From the IMG/VR virus record IMGVR_UViG_3300020391_000003, positions 62,001-126,000 of that record: a DNA stretch of 64,000 nucleotides. One strand, given 5' to 3'. Positions 1,801-41,257 of this stretch are shown in pieces. How positions within the stretch are numbered: position 1 is the stretch's first letter; each line of letters begins with the position of its first letter. The translations under genes and the position numbers were made by a program. Source of the stretch: a virus. Below the pieces are notes generated by a model that saw only the letters and a list, made by a program, of their open reading frames with translations, did no database searches and had not been told where the DNA came from.

Positions 1801-2355
1801 ATGGTAAAAATAGAAGGTAAAAATCTATTGTTCAAAACCAAATGCTATTTGGTTGGACATATGCAGTATGTCAGCGGCAGAAACTGGAGAGAAGAAGTCT
1901 CTGAAAAGCTGACCCCATTAAGTATTACTTGTTTTGATCCTTACAAAAAGCCATTTATGAAAGATGTAGAAGAAGATGAAGCCTCGCGTCAGGAAATGGA
2001 AACTTGGATGCAAACCAAGCAATACGATAGAGTTACAGATCGTATGAAAATGGTTAGAGCATATGATCTTAATTTAGTTGATCGAAGCGATTTTATTATT
2101 GCTCACCTTGTTCCTGATGTTGCAAGCTGGGGCAGTGCAGAAGAAATTGTAACTGCTGTGCGAGAAAAGAAACCTGTGTTTGTTAGCATGGAAGGAGGAA
2201 AAGCAAAAACTCCATTATGGATGCTTGGCATGTTTCCACATAAATATATTTATAATAATGTTGACGAAATCATTAAAATGCTGTATGCTATAGATAATGG
2301 CAACAAACCGATTGATTCAGACAGATGGAGATTATTAAGAAAGGAATTTAGATGA
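1801..2355 (+). CDS. Nucleoside 2-deoxyribosyltransferase-like protein
   Basis: This 184-residue protein opens with CYLVGHMQYVSGRNWREEV and continues with ITCFDPYKKPF, then VDRSDFIIAHLVPDVASWGS and a run ending PVFVSMEGG. This layout (hydrophobic strand, G-M, later D-x-x-I-A and S/G-T-x-x-E) matches the nucleoside deoxyribosyltransferase / YtoQ-like fold that moves or hydrolyses the deoxyribose of nucleosides. Related proteins are common in large phages near nucleotide genes, and GMP reductase follows here. The start is fixed by the promoter 6 bases upstream. Exact substrate is unknown; a sensor or NADase-type role in the same fold is possible. Confidence 0.6.
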   Translation: MVKIEGKNLLFKTKCYLVGHMQYVSGRNWREEVSEKLTPLSITCFDPYKKPFMKDVEEDEASRQEMETWMQTKQYDRVTDRMKMVRAYDLNLVDRSDFIIAHLVPDVASWGSAEEIVTAVREKKPVFVSMEGGKAKTPLWMLGMFPHKYIYNNVDEIIKMLYAIDNGNKPIDSDRWRLLRKEFR

Positions 2356-2471
2356 TACAAGTATTAGCATCAAGTTATTTTGAGTTTTTTCCTGGAGACT
2401 TTATAGTTTTTGGTATTTTAGGGGCAATTGTATGGATAAAGCAAGCAAAAGCAGATGAAGACTTTAAGTAA
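2352..2471 (+). CDS. Small single-pass membrane protein
   Basis: The 39-residue product overlaps the previous stop by ATGA and runs 17 bases into the next gene. A hydrophobic stretch (FIVFGILGAIVWI) in the middle is long enough for one membrane pass, followed by a charged tail (KADEDFK). The double overlap suggests translational coupling. Function unknown. Confidence 0.55.
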   Translation: MIQVLASSYFEFFPGDFIVFGILGAIVWIKQAKADEDFK

Positions 2472-3435
2472 AGCATATAAATATTCTGATATTTGCCTTG
2501 TTCCAAACTACAGCGAGGTATACAGTCGAACAGACTGTGACACTTTTTGCGAACTGGGCGGTAAAAATTTCAAATTACCAATTATACCCGCAAACATGAA
2601 ATCAGTTATAAACATGAGGCTTGCAAAATGGATGAGCCAAAATGATTATTTTTACATTATGCATCGATTTGATAATCATTTAGCTGATGATGTTGGGCTT
2701 GCAAACTCGGAAGATTGGAAAACAATATCATTTAGTGTTGGAGTGAAAATGCCAGATAAAATTCATGTAATGAATATTGGGCAATTAAAAAATATTAGAG
2801 TAGACTTTCTAACAATAGATATAGCTCATGGGCATTGTGCACGAATGAAAATGATGATTGAGCATATTAAAAAATGGCTACCTAATACAAAAATTATTGC
2901 AGGAAATGTTGCTACACCCTCTGCTGTAAGAGATTTAGCTGCTTGGGGTGCAGATATAGTAAAAGTTGGCATCGGTCAAGGGTCTCCTTGTACCACAAAA
3001 GACAAAACAGGTTTTACTATGCCGATGTTTAGTTGCACAACATGGTGCTCAAATGTTTTTAAAGATGAAAACTCAGAAAAACCTATCCCAATCATTGCAG
3101 ATGGAGGAATAAAATGCAACGGAGATATCGCGAAAGCTATGGTTGCAGGAGCAAGTATGGTTATGGCAGGTGGACTTTTCGCGGCATGCACTGATAGCCC
3201 TGCAGTCTCAAGTACGGTTAACGATATTCCACATAAAGCTTATTTTGGTTCTGCTAGTGCAGAAAATAAAGGCCATAACAATAACATCGAAGGCAAGCTT
3301 ACCAACATAGTTTCTAATGGCATGACATACGAGTCCAAGTTAAACGAAATAAAGCAAGACATACAGAGTGCAATATCATATTCTGGAGGAGACGATCTTT
3401 CTTATCTAAAAAATTCAGACTATTTTCAAACATGA
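2455..3435 (+). CDS. guaC: GMP reductase (IMPDH/GMPR family)
   Basis: This 326-residue TIM-barrel protein has the family signature IVKVGIGQGSPCTTKDKTG with the catalytic Cys at about residue 179, the phosphate-binding PIIADGGIKCNGDIAKAM, and TIDIAHGH. There is no CBS domain insertion, and the length matches GMP reductase (about 330-350) rather than IMP dehydrogenase (about 480). It would convert GMP to IMP with NADPH and release ammonia, diverting guanine nucleotides to the adenine branch, useful in an AT-rich phage. It sits between the deoxyribosyltransferase-like gene and an acetyltransferase-like gene in one run of overlapping genes. Confidence 0.82.
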   Translation: MKTLSKAYKYSDICLVPNYSEVYSRTDCDTFCELGGKNFKLPIIPANMKSVINMRLAKWMSQNDYFYIMHRFDNHLADDVGLANSEDWKTISFSVGVKMPDKIHVMNIGQLKNIRVDFLTIDIAHGHCARMKMMIEHIKKWLPNTKIIAGNVATPSAVRDLAAWGADIVKVGIGQGSPCTTKDKTGFTMPMFSCTTWCSNVFKDENSEKPIPIIADGGIKCNGDIAKAMVAGASMVMAGGLFAACTDSPAVSSTVNDIPHKAYFGSASAENKGHNNNIEGKLTNIVSNGMTYESKLNEIKQDIQSAISYSGGDDLSYLKNSDYFQT

Positions 3436-4173: not shown

Positions 4174-4503
4174 ATGGAAAATCAAACGCAAGAAAAGCAA
4201 CAGTCGGAATGGCGTAACAGAGAGCTTGGCGCTCTTTGGGTTCGCACGGGAAAGAGCCAAAAGTATCTTTCTGGAACTATTAATGTCGAGACCATGCCTG
4301 GAGTTACCGAACCTGTTAAGGTTGTGGTATTTACGAATAAGGGCAAGGAAAAGAACGAAAAGGCTCCAGATTACGTTATTTATCGTTCCGAAGAACTATC
4401 TCAAAAGAGTAACGTCGAAGAAGTAGCAAAAGAAGCCGCACAGGAAGTTAAGTCAACAGCTAAAGTTGCTGTAGATGAAGATATTCCAGAAGAGCTTTTT
4501 TAA
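4174..4503 (+). CDS. DUF736-like protein
   Basis: The 109-residue product has RELGALWVRTGKSQKYLSG near the start, then KVVVFTNKGKEKNEKAPDY. This G-x-x-W-x-x-x-x-G-x-x-Y-L-x-G and later N-K/P-D-Y pattern is that of DUF736, a small beta-rich family found in phages and plasmids. The last 40 residues are acidic and Ala/Val/Glu-rich, probably disordered (EEVAKEAAQEVKSTAKVAV). It is three bases downstream of the previous gene. Function unknown; a single-strand DNA or replication accessory role has been suggested by the acidic tail, which is inference. Confidence 0.5.
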   Translation: MENQTQEKQQSEWRNRELGALWVRTGKSQKYLSGTINVETMPGVTEPVKVVVFTNKGKEKNEKAPDYVIYRSEELSQKSNVEEVAKEAAQEVKSTAKVAVDEDIPEELF

Positions 4504-4521: not shown

Positions 4522-4704
4522 ATGGAAAAGAAATTTTGGCACAGTAAAAAGTTTTGGGCAGCAGTTTTTGCAGCAGCAACACCTCTGTTCAATCATTATT
4601 TTCATTTAGGCTTAACTCCGGAACTGACGATGCAAATCACAGGTCCGATATTGGCCTACATTCTTGGACAAGGTCTCGCAGATCTTGGTAAGAATAAATC
4701 ATAG
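4522..4704 (+). CDS. Small membrane protein, holin-like
   Basis: The 60-residue protein has two hydrophobic stretches: FWAAVFAAATPLFNHYF (about residues 11-27) and ITGPILAYILGQGLADLG (about 39-56), with Lys at both ends. Size and shape fit small phage membrane proteins including holins, but no lysis gene adjoins it, so holin is only a possibility. The tmRNA begins 16 bases after the stop. Confidence 0.5.
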   Translation: MEKKFWHSKKFWAAVFAAATPLFNHYFHLGLTPELTMQITGPILAYILGQGLADLGKNKS

Positions 4705-4720: not shown

Positions 4721-5082
4721 GGGCGTGTTCTGGATTCGATTTTTATTGGATTAGTTCACTGCAAGCCGAAGAGGTGCCTGGCTTCGATAAAAGGCACAAG
4801 CGAATAAATGCTAAAAACATTAATTCTGTTGAATCCTTCTCTCAAGAAGGGCTCGCTCTTGCAGCTTAAGTCTGCAACCTCTCCTCAATTGACGCAGATA
4901 AATTGAATGAGGGGTCATCCATCTGCAAAACAGATAAAAGTTTACTTGTTTCACAAACTGTAAATAATTGAGACAATTAGTTTGATGTTAATATCATAAC
5001 TATAAAAAAAATTAACTAAGCTTGTAGACGTGAATCTCTTGATGATAAAAAGACGCGGGTTCAACTCCCGCCACGTCCACCA
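4721..5082 (+). ncRNA. ssrA: Transfer-messenger RNA (tmRNA)
   Basis: A one-piece tmRNA of 362 bases. The 5' end GGGCGTG pairs with CACGTCC near the 3' end to form the 7-bp acceptor stem (one G-T pair), followed by A and an encoded CCA. The 5' segment has TTCTGGATTCGAT, the conserved tRNA-like start, and the 3' end has a T arm GCGGGTTCAACTCCCGC. The tag frame runs 4810-4869 and reads AKNINSVESFSQEGLALAA then TAA; the resume codon is GCT, and the ALAA end is the classic protease-recognition tail. It would rescue stalled ribosomes and tag the products. Host genes usually provide this; a phage copy is uncommon. Confidence 0.93.
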
Positions 5083-5087
5083 TTTAC

Positions 5088-5213
5088 ATGATTAAAAATA
5101 AAAAGTTAATTAATTATAAAATCAAAAAGCTAGAAAATAAAATTGTTTTTTTACAAAAGAAAAAATCTACTTTAGTTCGTGAAAAGCGCAGAAGTAAATA
5201 TTTACATAGATGA
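5088..5213 (+). CDS. Small basic coiled-coil protein after tmRNA
   Basis: The 41-residue product is very Lys-rich (MIKNKKLINYKIKKLENKI) and likely one amphipathic helix. Its ATG lies 5 bases after the tmRNA CCA, so 3' maturation of the tmRNA would leave a nearly leaderless message. It overlaps the next gene by 35 bases. Function unknown; it could be only a leader peptide. Confidence 0.4.
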   Translation: MIKNKKLINYKIKKLENKIVFLQKKKSTLVREKRRSKYLHR

Positions 5214-5598
5214 AGCTTCTTTAGATTTCTATGAAAAACTAGATTTTTTTCACGAACATTTTATAGATAAAATGCTTATGTGTGGGGTTTCTGACAACGG
5301 AAGTCATGTTGAAGAAATACCATTTACAAAATGCGCTCGAGAATATACTTATGATTTTTATAAAGCTTTAGTTTTCTTAGTTCAAAAATTTAAACCATTC
5401 TGCATATCTAAATTGACTAACAAAAAAAGACTAGAGTTAGAGTGTATGTTTTTTGATTTTTCTGAGCCAGGTTTTAGCGATAATGTGTATATGATACAGA
5501 ACGTTATGGATTGGACATCGAAAAAGAATTTCTCTTGTCAGTTTTGGAAAGTGAAAGATAATATCAAACCTGATATGATACTAGAATTTTGGTTATAA
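5179..5598 (+). CDS. Hypothetical protein
   Basis: The 139-residue product, with a GTG start, is not recognised. It is acidic-aromatic, with clusters such as FYEKLDFFHEHFIDKM and many Cys (five or more), and no signal peptide. It joins a run of overlapping genes (next start overlaps by TAATG). Confidence 0.5.
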   Translation: MKSAEVNIYIDEASLDFYEKLDFFHEHFIDKMLMCGVSDNGSHVEEIPFTKCAREYTYDFYKALVFLVQKFKPFCISKLTNKKRLELECMFFDFSEPGFSDNVYMIQNVMDWTSKKNFSCQFWKVKDNIKPDMILEFWL

Positions 5599-6293: not shown

Positions 6294-6566
6294 ATGAAAA
6301 AATTGACATTAAACAAAGATGGTACTCCGCGCAGAAGGCGTAATTCTTCTGGTAAAGGCGGTACAGCTATTGTGACCTTGAGTGTTGACGAGATCATGGA
6401 ACTCGCTTCTCAGGACGTTTCTTCTATTCCCGTAAGTGAGGATTGGGTAAAGTCAAGACTCTACACAAATTACTTACAGAGCAAAAAGGTATCTGCTGAT
6501 TTCAGCGAAACGCAAAGCTCGGAAGACAAGATTGAATACGCAATTACATCTTTTGATAATGAATAA
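6294..6566 (+). CDS. Hypothetical protein, probable partner of the RuvB-like ATPase
   Basis: The 90-residue product has a basic, Gly-containing N-terminus (TPRRRRNSSGKGGTAIV) followed by an acidic helical part (VDEIMELASQDVSSIPVSEDWVKS). It overlaps the RuvB-like ATPase gene by 8 bases, so the two are likely cotranslated. The function is unknown; a loader or DNA-binding partner is inference from position alone. Confidence 0.55.
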   Translation: MKKLTLNKDGTPRRRRNSSGKGGTAIVTLSVDEIMELASQDVSSIPVSEDWVKSRLYTNYLQSKKVSADFSETQSSEDKIEYAITSFDNE

Positions 6567-7485
6567 TTATTTTGATCATCTTATAGGGCAAGACAATGTT
6601 AAGAAGAAGTTAAACTTCTACATTAAAGCTTATCACGCTACAAGTGTCTGCCCATTTTTGAATCTTGTTGGAGCAAAAGGACTAGGAAAAACTTTATTTG
6701 CGAAAGAGTTCGCCAAAAATCTTCACAATAAAGATGGAGGCAAAAGACCATTTATTGAGCTTAACTGCTCAACCATCAAGAATAACAGGCAATTCTTTGA
6801 GCAAATTTTCATTCCTTTGGTGATGAACAACGAGATTACTATTTTGTTTGACGAAGCTCATGCTTTGCCAAAAGATCTGACTATGGCTTTTCTTACTATT
6901 TTTAACACAGAAAAAACAAGCAAAAAAGAATTTATATTTGAAGAGCAAACTTTCGAATTTGATTTCACTAAGCAAACATTTATTTTTGCAACCACAGAAA
7001 GTGATAAATTGTTTCCTCCATTGAAAGACAGACTCAGTACAGTTGACTTTGAGCCATACTCAAAAGAGAATCTTGGAGAAATTATAAAACTAAATTGTGA
7101 TGGAATTAATTTTAGTGATGACGCTCTTTCTGCTTTATCTGAAACGGTTCGAGGCAACGCAAGAAATGCAGTGATGCGCTCAAAAGAAATTGTTCTTTAT
7201 TGCGAGTCAGAAAATCAAAACACTTTCGATATGCAAGATCATCTTAATCTTACAGATCTTCTTGGAATATTACCTCATGGTATTACTTGTACCGAGCGTC
7301 AAATCTTAGAGATTTTAGATCAAAGAGGTAGCTGTAAGCTACAAACTTTATCGGCAGTTACAGGCTTAAGCCCAACCAGTCTTAGAAGAGATCATGAGGT
7401 GTATCTTCTTAGAAAAAATTTCATGCAAATTGACGGAGAAAGAAAAATCACTAATTTCGGCAAAAACTTAATAAAATCAATATAA
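6559..7485 (+). CDS. RuvB-like AAA+ ATPase
   Basis: This 308-residue protein has Walker A GAKGLGKT (about 38-45), Walker B ITILFDEAH (about 93-101), sensor-1 TFIFATTE, an arginine-finger-like PPLKDRLST and sensor-2 VRGNARNAV. The C-terminus (RQILEILDQRGSCKLQTLSA, then LSPTSLRRDHEVYLLRKNF) matches the winged-helix domain of RuvB, giving the same order and nearly the same length as bacterial RuvB (about 330-350). RuvB drives Holliday-junction branch migration. No RuvA is seen here, but a Holliday-resolvase-like nuclease gene lies 1.1 kb downstream. A clamp-loader-type ATPase is the alternative. Confidence 0.75.
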   Translation: MNNYFDHLIGQDNVKKKLNFYIKAYHATSVCPFLNLVGAKGLGKTLFAKEFAKNLHNKDGGKRPFIELNCSTIKNNRQFFEQIFIPLVMNNEITILFDEAHALPKDLTMAFLTIFNTEKTSKKEFIFEEQTFEFDFTKQTFIFATTESDKLFPPLKDRLSTVDFEPYSKENLGEIIKLNCDGINFSDDALSALSETVRGNARNAVMRSKEIVLYCESENQNTFDMQDHLNLTDLLGILPHGITCTERQILEILDQRGSCKLQTLSAVTGLSPTSLRRDHEVYLLRKNFMQIDGERKITNFGKNLIKSI

Positions 7486-17216: not shown

Positions 17217-17807
17217 TTAGTTTTTTTTCTTTGCATGATATAAATCGTCCTTAATATCTTTAATAACTTTTTCAAGATAAGAAACTCTTTTATCTCTTGA
17301 TACAAAAGGAACAGACCAAAACTGACGAGTACGAAACCAAAGCCTCCAATTCCAGCCAAACACAAAAGAATATACTCCCATTATCAATCGCAACTTTACA
17401 GAGTTTGCATATAAAGTAAGAACTGGTAGCGCAGGAGCTCCGTGAGTTATATATGTTCTAACGATTCTATCTTTTAGCAGAGCGGATGGAAGCCCCATAG
17501 TCTTGGTGATAGACTTAAAATTATATGCAAATCCTGGAGTAAAAACTTCGTCAAAAAATACTTCAAGTTTTGGAGTGCAACGAAACCACCAAACAGGTGA
17601 TACAAAATAAATATGAGTTGACCAAGAAACATAATCTTTATATGTTTTTACTAAATCAGTATTCTCTCGCCTGAAATTTTCTTGGTACAATTCTATTGTT
17701 TTTATTTCAACTTTCTTGTTTTCCAAAATAGTTTTAATTGTTCTAAAAATTCCATCATAGCAGAAGGAATCTGTTTCGGGATGTCCGATTATTATTAGTG
17801 CTTTCAT
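17217..17807 (-). CDS. NAD(P)H:quinone oxidoreductase-like flavoprotein
   Basis: The 196-residue protein has a flavodoxin-like (Flavodoxin_2) fold: strand 1 then GHPETDSFCYDG (FMN/FAD phosphate loop), and YFVSPVWWFRCTPKLEVFFD with a following GFAYNF, a signature of the KefF/MdaB/NQO family (P-x-W/Y-W-x-x-x-P). It would reduce quinones by two electrons from NAD(P)H. The ATG lies 1 base after the SdhC-like stop, so it is the last gene of the minus-strand operon; a longer in-frame start would overlap that gene. The hydrophobic stretch near residue 150 may touch the membrane. Confidence 0.75.
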   Translation of the reverse strand: MKALIIIGHPETDSFCYDGIFRTIKTILENKKVEIKTIELYQENFRRENTDLVKTYKDYVSWSTHIYFVSPVWWFRCTPKLEVFFDEVFTPGFAYNFKSITKTMGLPSALLKDRIVRTYITHGAPALPVLTLYANSVKLRLIMGVYSFVFGWNWRLWFRTRQFWSVPFVSRDKRVSYLEKVIKDIKDDLYHAKKKN

Positions 17808-17808
17808 A

Positions 17809-18513
17809 TTAAAAAAGGTTGTTGTTAAATACTTCAATTAAACCAAATTTTTGTGTGACAACTGCAATAGGAATAATTGCAAAGCCAATAAAAATAATAT
17901 AAGCATACGCATAAGAAACTATTTCAAGTTTTGGTCTCATTGCCTCGGTACGCAATCCAAGAGATTGAAACGTACTTGAAACTCCGTGAACAAGATGCTT
18001 GCAAAGCAAAAACATTGCGAGAACATAAAAAATGCTTATCCATTCTTTTTTGAATCCATAAATCATCATAGCATAAACATCGTGAATTTGCTCACCATTG
18101 GGTGATCCAACTGTTGTCATAAGGTTATCGTATTCAGGATAAATAATGCGAATAGTATAATGAAACAAATGAAAGAAAATGAAAGCAAAAATAATAGAAC
18201 CACTTAGACCCATACGCAATGAATGCCATTTGCTTTTTTTGGTAACTTCTATTTTATTTTTAATTGGTCTTGCTTTTTTGTTTTCACGAATTAATGCCAC
18301 TGCTACGACAATATGAATAAACACACTTGCAAACAATATTAAACGAGAACCCCATAATATAGGCATCGGTAGATTTTGCAAAAAGTATGCGTATGCGTTA
18401 ATGGCATCTTGACCAATAAAAATCTGAAGATTGCCTGTCATATGCACAAATACAAATCCTACGAGAACAAGACCAGTAAGTGCCATTAGATATTTTTTAA
18501 TTAATGAATTCAT
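17809..18513 (-). CDS. sdhC: Succinate dehydrogenase cytochrome b558 subunit (SdhC-like)
   Basis: This 234-residue protein has five or six membrane segments and His at about 24, 67, 115, 118, 173 and 176. FVHMTGNLQIF and CKHLVHGVSSTFQSLG match the di-haem b558 subunit of succinate dehydrogenase / fumarate reductase found in Bacteroidota, Chlamydiae, Verrucomicrobia and relatives. It would bind haem b and anchor SdhA/SdhB, passing electrons to quinone. No SdhA or SdhB genes are in the window, so it would have to work with host subunits or replace the host one. It overlaps the upstream gene by ATGA. Confidence 0.82.
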   Translation of the reverse strand: MNSLIKKYLMALTGLVLVGFVFVHMTGNLQIFIGQDAINAYAYFLQNLPMPILWGSRLILFASVFIHIVVAVALIRENKKARPIKNKIEVTKKSKWHSLRMGLSGSIIFAFIFFHLFHYTIRIIYPEYDNLMTTVGSPNGEQIHDVYAMMIYGFKKEWISIFYVLAMFLLCKHLVHGVSSTFQSLGLRTEAMRPKLEIVSYAYAYIIFIGFAIIPIAVVTQKFGLIEVFNNNLF

Positions 18514-19331
18514 TCTGGTCTTTTGCCCAAAGGCTTGCCGTCTTGACCAATCTCACCCTTTCTTATTTTAGTGGCAGAAACTTCTTGAAGCTCTTTGCTT
18601 AGTTCAAGCTGTTCTATATTATAACCAACACCTCTGCCGTAAAATACGTCAGTAATATTGGGTAATTCTACTACTTTTATTTTATTACCAAATTCCAAAC
18701 AAGCCGCATGAATTTCTTGTTTAACTTTTTCAAAATCATAAGGATTACTTTCATCAGTTCCAGCAACATCCCTTAGAGCTATACAGCATTGACCTGTTCT
18801 TTTAATTGCTTCTGCGACCAAAGTCTTGTGTCCGACATGAAATGGCTGATATCGACCGATTAATAATGCAGTGGGAGCTTGATTATCCCATTTTTCTGTT
18901 TCATAAATATTCTTCAAAGCCTTTTCGCACCACTCTTCAGGAGTCCCCTCTCTAAGAATCAAGTCTTGATCATCCCATCTTTTGTCTTTTGTTGGGTCTT
19001 CAAAAAGTTTGTTTGTATCTGCATATCTACCTTCTTTAATTCTATCAACCCATATTACAAAATCAGCATTAAATGCTTCTCTAGCTTCTTCTGTTGGACA
19101 ACAAAAATCCGAAACAACATATCCTCCACCAAGAGCCGCCCAATCTGCAAGTTTGCCCATTCTTCTTGCATGCTCTATACGATCTTCAGCAGAAAATCCA
19201 AGGTCTTTATGTATTTCTTGTCTGACTGCATCAGCGTTAAACCATACAGCATTTAGTCGTGGCACTAATTTTTCTGCTAAAGTTGTTTTTCCAGAACCTG
19301 GCAACCCCATAATTAAAATCTTTCTTTTCAT
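18510..19331 (-). CDS. Kinase-nucleotidyltransferase fusion (APS-kinase-like plus NMNAT-like)
   Basis: The 273-residue protein has two domains. Residues 1-150 have P-loop GLPGSGKT (9-16), FNADAVRQEIHKDLGFSAED and GYVVSDFCCPTEEARE, strongly resembling adenylylsulfate kinase. Residues 150-273 have LIGRYQPFHVGHKTL (the H-x-G-H nucleotidyltransferase motif of NMN adenylyltransferases) and EVSATKIRKGE (the S-x-T-x-I-R motif). NadR joins the same kinds of domain in the opposite order. Possible jobs are NAD synthesis or PAPS supply; the ATP-sulfurylase motif is not seen, so NMN adenylyltransferase is favoured for the C-terminal half. First gene of a three-gene minus-strand operon. Confidence 0.7.
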   Translation of the reverse strand: MKRKILIMGLPGSGKTTLAEKLVPRLNAVWFNADAVRQEIHKDLGFSAEDRIEHARRMGKLADWAALGGGYVVSDFCCPTEEAREAFNADFVIWVDRIKEGRYADTNKLFEDPTKDKRWDDQDLILREGTPEEWCEKALKNIYETEKWDNQAPTALLIGRYQPFHVGHKTLVAEAIKRTGQCCIALRDVAGTDESNPYDFEKVKQEIHAACLEFGNKIKVVELPNITDVFYGRGVGYNIEQLELSKELQEVSATKIRKGEIGQDGKPLGKRPE

Positions 19332-21558: not shown

Positions 21559-21587
21559 TTGACATCTTTTGTCTTTCGTGCTAAAAT
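21559..21587 (+). promoter_or_regulatory. Promoter of the UV endonuclease gene
   Basis: TTGACA and TAAAAT are 17 bases apart; the ATG at 21595 begins 7 bases after the -10 and excludes an in-frame start at 21559 that lies inside the promoter. Confidence 0.8.
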
Positions 21588-21594
21588 GAACTCT

Positions 21595-22632
21595 ATGAAC
21601 GAAACAATACTAGGCTTAACTTGCATCAGTGAACAACTGAAAGACAAAGACAAGAAAAAATACTCTTTTCAAACTATGACTCGCAAGAGATTTAACGATC
21701 TTTGTGTAAAAGAAAGCAGAGATGAAGCCATTGATCAACTTTCTGAAAGGATTATTCACAATATTCGCACGACTCAGTACATTTTGCGTCATTGCATTAC
21801 AAATAACATTGTTCACTATCGTCTTAGTTCTGCTTTGTTTCCTCTTCTTACTGATTCAACTCTCGATCTCTCTCTTGAGTCTTTGCCGAATTATTCCACG
21901 ATTAAACACGAACTAAGATTTGCGGGGCTTATTGCTTTTTCTTTTAAAATGTCTATCAGTATTCATCCCGATCAGTTTAATGTTCTTGCATCTACAAACG
22001 AAATGTCTGTTGCAAAAAGCATCAAAGAACTTAATTTTCAGTCTGATATTATGGACATGATGGGTCTACCTCAAGATCATACTGCCCCTATGAATATTCA
22101 TATCAATGGTACTCCTCCCGAAATAGAATCAAAAGATGATCCTGATGTAGTGAAAAATGTTAGAATAAAAGAAATGGCAGAAAGATTTTATAATAACCTT
22201 ATGCGTTGTCAGCCAGGAGTATTCAATCGCTTGACCATCGAAAATGAAGATAAAGGTTTTTGGAATGTAGACAACATTATTAAATTTAGTGAATATATTT
22301 TCAAAAAATATGGGTTTAACCTTCCAATCTGTTATGACAACTTACATGACTTTTGCAATCCGTCCGAAGAACTTAGCACTTCATTTCAAGCAGAAAGATG
22401 TGCGTATACATGGGTAAACCCACTCAAGCAAGATGACCACTTTGTTGCTCCTGTGTTTCATTGGTCAGAGGGTAAACCCGAAAAGCCAAGGGCACACGCA
22501 GATTATTTTGCACTAGGAAATTTTCCACCGCATATCGCTATTGATCCTAAAAAACCTGTTAAATGGGAATGCGAAGTTAAGCAAAAAGACAAAGCGATTT
22601 CATTGTTGAAAAAAAATTTACAAAAAGTATGA
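21595..22632 (+). CDS. uvsE: UV damage endonuclease (UvsE/UVDE)
   Basis: The 345-residue TIM-barrel protein shows the UVDE motifs: NIVHYRLSSALFPLLTD, MSISIHPDQFNVLAS, MNIHINGTPPE, LTIENEDKGF and FHWSEGKPEKPRAHADYF, with the conserved metal-binding His, Glu and Asp residues. It nicks DNA 5' of UV photoproducts, starting an alternative excision repair. Length and motif order are as in bacterial UvsE. The phage probably uses it to repair its own genome in sunlit water. The next small gene overlaps by ATGA. Confidence 0.92.
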   Translation: MNETILGLTCISEQLKDKDKKKYSFQTMTRKRFNDLCVKESRDEAIDQLSERIIHNIRTTQYILRHCITNNIVHYRLSSALFPLLTDSTLDLSLESLPNYSTIKHELRFAGLIAFSFKMSISIHPDQFNVLASTNEMSVAKSIKELNFQSDIMDMMGLPQDHTAPMNIHINGTPPEIESKDDPDVVKNVRIKEMAERFYNNLMRCQPGVFNRLTIENEDKGFWNVDNIIKFSEYIFKKYGFNLPICYDNLHDFCNPSEELSTSFQAERCAYTWVNPLKQDDHFVAPVFHWSEGKPEKPRAHADYFALGNFPPHIAIDPKKPVKWECEVKQKDKAISLLKKNLQKV

Positions 22633-40917: not shown

Positions 40918-41257
40918 ATAAATTTGAGAACAAAACTCAAATAAATAAAATAAATTGATCTTTAACATTTTAAACACTTTGGAAGGGCTTATAATCCTTC
41001 CTGTGGGTGACTGAGCAAGCCTGTGATGAGCGGGCTAAGGTACGCAGATTCCTTGTGGTGAGGTAGCAGAGTCCAATCGGATGAGCTGATGACGAATACC
41101 AAGTCTAATTTGTGGTGCGAAGTAGGAAACACTTGAACTGATGTTCATCCCGAAAAGTCGAGGGTATACAGTAATCCCTTCCCACACTAATTTTCTTAAT
41201 CATACAATCCCTAACCCTGTCCAAGACAAAGAAGAACCTCTTGGATGGGGTTTTTTT
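40918..41257 (+). ncRNA. Candidate structured non-coding RNA, unassigned
   Basis: An ORF-free transcription unit lies between a perfect promoter and an intrinsic terminator. The middle (about 40981-41186) is far more GC-rich than its surroundings. GGAAGGG at 40981 pairs with CCCTTCC at 41176, closing a ~200-base domain. Inside are AGCCTG/CGGGCT (41018/41031), a TAAGG/CCTTG hairpin (41036/41051), TACCA/TGGTG (41097/41113) and GAAC-TGAT-GTTC (41135-41146). GGAAGG can instead pair with CCTTCC at 40996, and CCCACA at 41181 with TGTGGG at 41002, so two exclusive folds exist. It matches no RNA family I know. Confidence 0.65.
41213..41257 (+). terminator. Intrinsic terminator of the RNA gene
   Basis: The inverted segments AACCC plus TCCAAGA (41213-41226) and TCTTGGA plus GGGTT (41239-41252) pair into an interrupted stem, followed by a run of seven T. 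Confidence 0.75.

Follow-up and report, generated by a model that had tools for sequence, protein, structure and literature searches.

The DNA window analysed here, 64,000 nucleotides at positions 62001-126000 of a virus record with 184,324 bases, carries a complete one-piece tmRNA gene (ssrA). Comparison with its relatives suggests that this is quite probably a functional, vertically inherited tmRNA of a large marine phage family, which would rescue stalled ribosomes and add a phage tag to the released fragments.

ARAGORN called the tmRNA at exactly 4721-5082 (+) and read its tag as AKNINSVESFSQEGLALAA, with the tag coding part at 90-149 of the gene, stop included. The RF00023 model matched by cmscan from end to end (positions 1-374 of 374) with 153.9 bits and an E value of 1.2e-60, the gathering score being 47. 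The first-pass annotation had claimed a complete phage-encoded tmRNA and named a covariance scan as its check; the scan was passed and the claim is borne out. The tRNA-like domain has a 7-bp acceptor stem with the G3.U70 pair, a T arm and an encoded CCA, and the in-frame tag ORF ends with a stop after a hydrophobic Ala-Ala end. In PK2, GCAGAT (4894-4899) is complementary to ATCTGC (4921-4926); both strands are invariant among the relatives, hence no covariation signal is possible there. The RF00023 model aligns through the pseudoknot region, and its structure line has no pseudoknot pairs. A chance match was ruled out for this locus, which is the sole tmRNA of the whole record. A promoter scan gave unconvincing sites. 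Directly before the tmRNA, at 4522-4704 (+), we spotted by eye a 60-aa membrane-protein-like ORF of holin-like size.

Features of the tmRNA gene and of the genes discussed in the text (positions are those of the window unless a locus or the record is named)
Feature	Position	Strand	Basis and remarks
ssrA, one-piece tmRNA, 362 nt	4721..5082	+	ARAGORN; RF00023 full length
Acceptor stem 5' strand GGGCGTG, G3 paired with U70	4721..4727	+	sequence; kept in 26/26 relatives
Tag frame AKNINSVESFSQEGLALAA and stop TAA	4810..4869	+	ARAGORN; relatives keep the frame and the LALAA C-terminus
PK2 signature GACGCAGATA...GGGGTCATCCATCTGC	4891..4926	+	lineage-diagnostic; invariant in 26 relatives
T arm of tRNA-like domain, GCGGG-TTCAACT-CCCGC	5055..5071	+	sequence; compensatory changes in 5/5 stem pairs
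Acceptor stem 3' strand CACGTCC, discriminator A, encoded CCA	5072..5082	+	sequence; RF00023; relatives
Nucleoside 2-deoxyribosyltransferase-like (NDT)	1801..2355	+	weak Pfam PF15891/PF05014; near tmRNA in most related loci
IMP dehydrogenase/GMP reductase (IMPDH)	2455..3435	+	PF00478, 192.5 bits; synteny
109-aa protein of unknown function	4174..4503	+	upstream neighbour in most window-type loci
139-aa protein of unknown function	5179..5598	+	first downstream neighbour in most window-type loci
Clamp-loader/RuvB-like AAA+ ATPase, downstream	6532..7485	+	phrog_168, PF00004; synteny
Flavodoxin-fold oxidoreductase	17217-17837		adjoins SdhC
SdhC, succinate dehydrogenase cytochrome b subunit, b558 family	17809-18513	-	TIGR02046, 167 bits
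APS-kinase-like P-loop gene	18510-19331		adjoins SdhC
ClpC-type AAA+ unfoldase, 820 aa, outside the window	record 139758-142220 (L006:14758-17220)	-	beside phage DNA polymerase gene
DUF1501 gene	L007:6391-7656, within record 150391-153725	-	
DUF1549/DUF1553 gene	L007:7677-9725, within record 150391-153725	-	adjoins DUF1501
HSP20 small heat-shock protein gene	L007:9900-10538	-	upstream of DUF1549/DUF1553 gene

The PK2 DNA pattern matched 61 viral contigs, one of which was already known from the tag pattern, placing at least 60 further IMG/VR contigs in the same tmRNA lineage. Among the five terminase (TerL) relatives longer than 100 kb, all of them fragmentary records, four carry the full tmRNA (G007, G031, G038 and G039) and G037 has none. 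The rarity asserted by the first-pass annotation holds for phages at large, where tmRNAs were found in 402 of 18,146 genomes (2.3%, PMC9004378), and fails inside the family, in which nearly all long records carry the gene. We aligned 26 tmRNAs out of the PK2-pattern contigs; RNAalifold predicted 62 pairs, and compensatory double changes, one or more per pair, occur in 42 of them. G3.U70, the identity pair for alanine, is kept in 26/26, while the adjoining pair exchanges C4-G69 for G4-C69. The compensatory changes together with the constancy of G3.U70 indicate, at the level of sequence, that the tmRNA structure is under selection.

The tag frame is likewise under selection. Readable LALAA-type tags have 19, 20, 21, 31, 32 or 33 codons, so that insertions and deletions respect the frame; pN/pS inside the length classes is 0.38-0.64 (pooled pairwise counts without a tree, indicative only); and the C-terminus is LALAA in 36 of the 39 distinct tags and VAMAA or VALAA in the other three. 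The tags fall into three classes: class A, like AKNINSVESFSQEGLALAA, of 19-21 aa with a net charge of -3 to -1, to which the window's tag (-1) belongs; class B, like GKNKNRVVAFSPKAEKLALAA, of 20-21 aa and +1 to +6; and class C, like GNKNRVRALGFKNRLAAKRFGFKGRKLALAA, of 31-33 aa and +10 to +12. These statistics leave out six loci with no readable tag in the scan and four more (L109, L173, L106, L144) which have the PK2 signature but whose tag region differs, is longer and may be mis-framed. In these four a long open region lies upstream and the tags are odd (EDATALYEAEELPMAA, AREEYDNLVQFEQAEELEMVA), their frame and start being uncertain. In comparison, the tags of 88 Verrucomicrobiota tmRNAs have a median length of 9 aa (range 9-18, mostly 9) and charges of -3 to 0, and are never basic. 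The window's 19-aa tag is thus longer than common, as the first-pass annotation had noted. Longer tags whose start resembles class A exist in a few Verrucomicrobiota (AKNTITFENDNVLALAA, AKNTMSFEGNAVALAA); this likeness is suggestive and does not amount to a donor match.

In a tree built with the tag codons removed, the phage tmRNAs formed one clade (support 0.995), far from 90 Verrucomicrobiota tmRNAs, and about 1.25 substitutions per site separated the window's tmRNA from the nearest genuine Verrucomicrobiota tmRNA. The sole member of the clade outside the phage set is L182, and this is the L173 locus itself. With a covariance model of the block from PK2 to the 3' end, the phage loci scored 106-173 bits and the tested Verrucomicrobiota and Planctomycetota tmRNAs at most 17.5 bits. 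A looser PK2 pattern found 15 matches in 84,980 prokaryote genomes, with a phage-type tmRNA on only two of them, L171 and L173; among the 15, ARAGORN calls a tmRNA in L173 only, and that of L171 was read manually. The other 13 were taken as chance. L171 and L173 lie on 47-49 kb MAG contigs; given the phage-lineage type of their tmRNA, we took these contigs to be phage DNA that binning had placed in MAGs. The pseudoknot-block covariance model retrieved nothing from 387 Verrucomicrobiota and 392 Planctomycetota genomes, in a screen run without a positive control and with about seven candidates scored per genome; our view of the origin rests on the direct comparison of block scores and tree, not on these screens. 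The comparison with Verrucomicrobiota and other hosts, from which the first-pass annotation expected a donor, yielded no cellular tmRNA of the phage type. By these sequence comparisons the lineage is phage-specific, and since the sample holds no cellular tmRNA of its type, we regard it as an old phage lineage, not one acquired recently from any host in the sample.

The order NDT, IMPDH, the gene at 3432, the gene at 4174, tmRNA, the gene at 5179 and clamp-loader ATPase is kept wholly or partly in about 30 related loci. In another branch a ClpC gene lies upstream of the tmRNA, on the same strand and within 1.5 kb, on nine contigs in total: those of L105, L114, L122 (same contig as L095), L133, L136, L145, L150 and L163, and that of L131, the last by coordinates (47 bp). 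A virion structural gene separates ClpC from the tmRNA in L105, L114, L136, L150 and L163, and we therefore do not claim a ClpC-tmRNA operon. Directly downstream of the tmRNA, several linked contigs have DUF1501, alone or behind a DUF1549/1553 gene. In the window's own genome, tmRNA and ClpC are about 73 kb apart. None of 30 Verrucomicrobiota ssrA loci has ClpC within 1.5 kb, suggesting that the phages did not simply inherit this linkage from host gene order.

The phage ClpC has the full architecture of Clp_N, two AAA+ modules, ClpB_D2-small and an [LIV]GF loop. Its best match among solved structures is B. subtilis ClpC (670 bits), with VGF aligned to VGF, which is the ClpP-docking loop of the family. 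It scores below the NCBIfam equivalog cut-offs for ClpB (799.5 against 1232.1) and ClpA (740.4 against 993.2). Of 35 phage records, 23 (the window's own among them) encode a homologue with 41-71% identity; 18 records reach 100 kb or more and 16 of these have the gene, as do all six that reach 175 kb. The [LIVMF]GF loop, both Walker motifs (A and B) and the pore loops are kept in all 23. Neither SmpB nor ClpP was found in the window's record. A search for SmpB was negative in all 35 phage records and positive in 10 of 14 control genomes; with no phage SmpB, that of the host must presumably serve the phage tmRNA.

The record is that of a large tailed phage, marked by genes for terminase, DNA polymerase, RIIA, ribonucleotide reductase and baseplate/tail-fibre proteins. 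IMG/VR holds at least 593 confirmed terminase relatives. An INPHARED megablast for near relatives gave tRNA matches only, and among isolate phages there is no close relative, the best TerL identity being about 26%. The host of this marine phage is likely to belong to Verrucomicrobiota or Planctomycetota, as suggested by the DUF1501 and DUF1549/DUF1553 gene set, presumably typical of the PVC superphylum, together with the b558-type SdhC. DUF1501 was present in 18 of the 35 phage records searched and also in two control genomes outside PVC. A donor search via SdhC across genome contigs retrieved no relative.

We propose that host alanyl-tRNA synthetase probably charges the phage tmRNA with alanine via G3.U70, and that host SmpB and EF-Tu would deliver it to ribosomes that have stalled on broken messages of the phage or the host. 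The tmRNA would then release these ribosomes and add a phage-specific tag ending in LALAA, and the tagged fragments could pass to ClpP via host ClpX, ClpA or ClpC or, more speculatively, reach host ClpP via the docked phage ClpC-type unfoldase. We infer expression, charging, use of host SmpB, tag recognition and the ClpC link from sequence.

Other readings of the locus deserve weighing against ribosome rescue with a phage tag. The gene might be the remnant of an integration site, or a host ssrA picked up recently and by accident: attachment sites often lie at the 3' end of ssrA, and in several prophage records the match is confined to the 3' 31 nt. Such an origin is very improbable for a full-length tmRNA that is kept in dozens of phages, with compensatory evolution and conserved synteny, and with no donor by signature in the 84,980 genomes nor among the Verrucomicrobiota tmRNAs. 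It is also conceivable that the phage tmRNA acts mainly as a competitive decoy which titrates SmpB, displaces the host tmRNA and alters or blocks host trans-translation. Mycobacteriophage DS6A offers a precedent, a tmRNA cut down to the tRNA-like domain (TLD), and a similar molecule inhibits E. coli tmRNA (PMC4131195; PMC11915505); moreover, the lack of a phage SmpB implies that host SmpB must be shared. Across the family, however, selection acts on the tag frame, its stop and the LALAA end, although a decoy could do without a tag, and also on helices beyond the tRNA-like domain; the selected tag in particular makes a decoy unlikely.

Re-routing of host proteins by the phage tag, to destruction or to an altered fate, draws on the tags of related phages (20-33 aa and +1 to +12, against a Verrucomicrobiota median of 9 aa and -3 to 0) and on the phage-encoded ClpC; the basic tags of the relatives may shift the receiving unfoldase, adaptor or cell location. 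We consider this doubtful, as the window's own tag is slightly acidic, all tag classes retain the ordinary LALAA-type degron end, and the argument concerns computed net charge, not recognition. In a dedicated tag-and-destroy route, the diverged tag (up to 33 aa and +12) would be preferred by a phage ClpC working on host ClpP, and the phage would take over trans-translation and proteolysis together. This reading is based on three things: tmRNA and ClpC occur together, they are linked in one branch, and the ClpP loop is intact. We hold it as a tentative possibility because shared ancestry weakens both co-occurrence and linkage: within one viral clade, the co-occurrence of tmRNA and ClpC partly reflects common descent and is not independent evidence.

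Phage tmRNAs are known (list in PMC4131195), and both roles suggested by the first-pass annotation, rescue on phage messages and redirected degradation, have already been proposed for them, including the tagging of host proteins (PMC9004378). Mycobacteriophages Bxz1, Cali and Wildcat, Bacillus phage G, the Streptomyces BE phages and the OM43 phage Melnitz likewise encode a complete tmRNA, in other hosts than that of the present phage. The Melnitz tmRNA is two-piece and SAR11-related (PMC9004378), whereas ours is one-piece and of its own lineage, and in comparison with these named phages the present family has long and, in relatives, strongly basic tags as well as a ClpC gene. With bacterial tmRNA (RF00023; Verrucomicrobiota ssrA as reference) it shares the fold, G3.U70, the CCA and a resume codon before a tag that ends in LALAA or ALAA, and differs from Verrucomicrobiota ssrA in tag length (19-33 against mostly 9 aa) and charge (up to +12 against -3 to 0). 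The DS6A molecule is also a phage-encoded tmRNA relative, presumably working on host SmpB; it has no tag, in contrast to the selected tag kept here. Jumbo phages such as 121Q, K64-1, GAP32 and CBB likewise encode a Clp HSP100 ATPase (also PMC7824862), which is ClpA-like and about 30-37% identical to the present ClpC over the aligned region. None of the literature searched, which excluded most subscription papers, describes this tmRNA family, basic phage tags of 31-33 aa or an association between tmRNA and ClpC, and all three look new relative to known phage tmRNAs.

Rescue, sensing, decoy and redirected degradation have been proposed as roles of phage tmRNA without decisive tests. Here, a phage family combines a near-universal tmRNA, selection on fold and tag, tags that differ from those in the probable host phylum and a co-encoded ClpC, and the three tag classes and 23 ClpCs provide defined sequences for testing whether phages re-route the products of trans-translation. 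Elsewhere in the window we observed a manA RNA motif at 40981-41190 (+) (RF01745, 74 bits, gathering 55.2) and a UV-damage endonuclease gene of the UvdE family at 21559-22632 (+) (PF03851, 109.7 bits).
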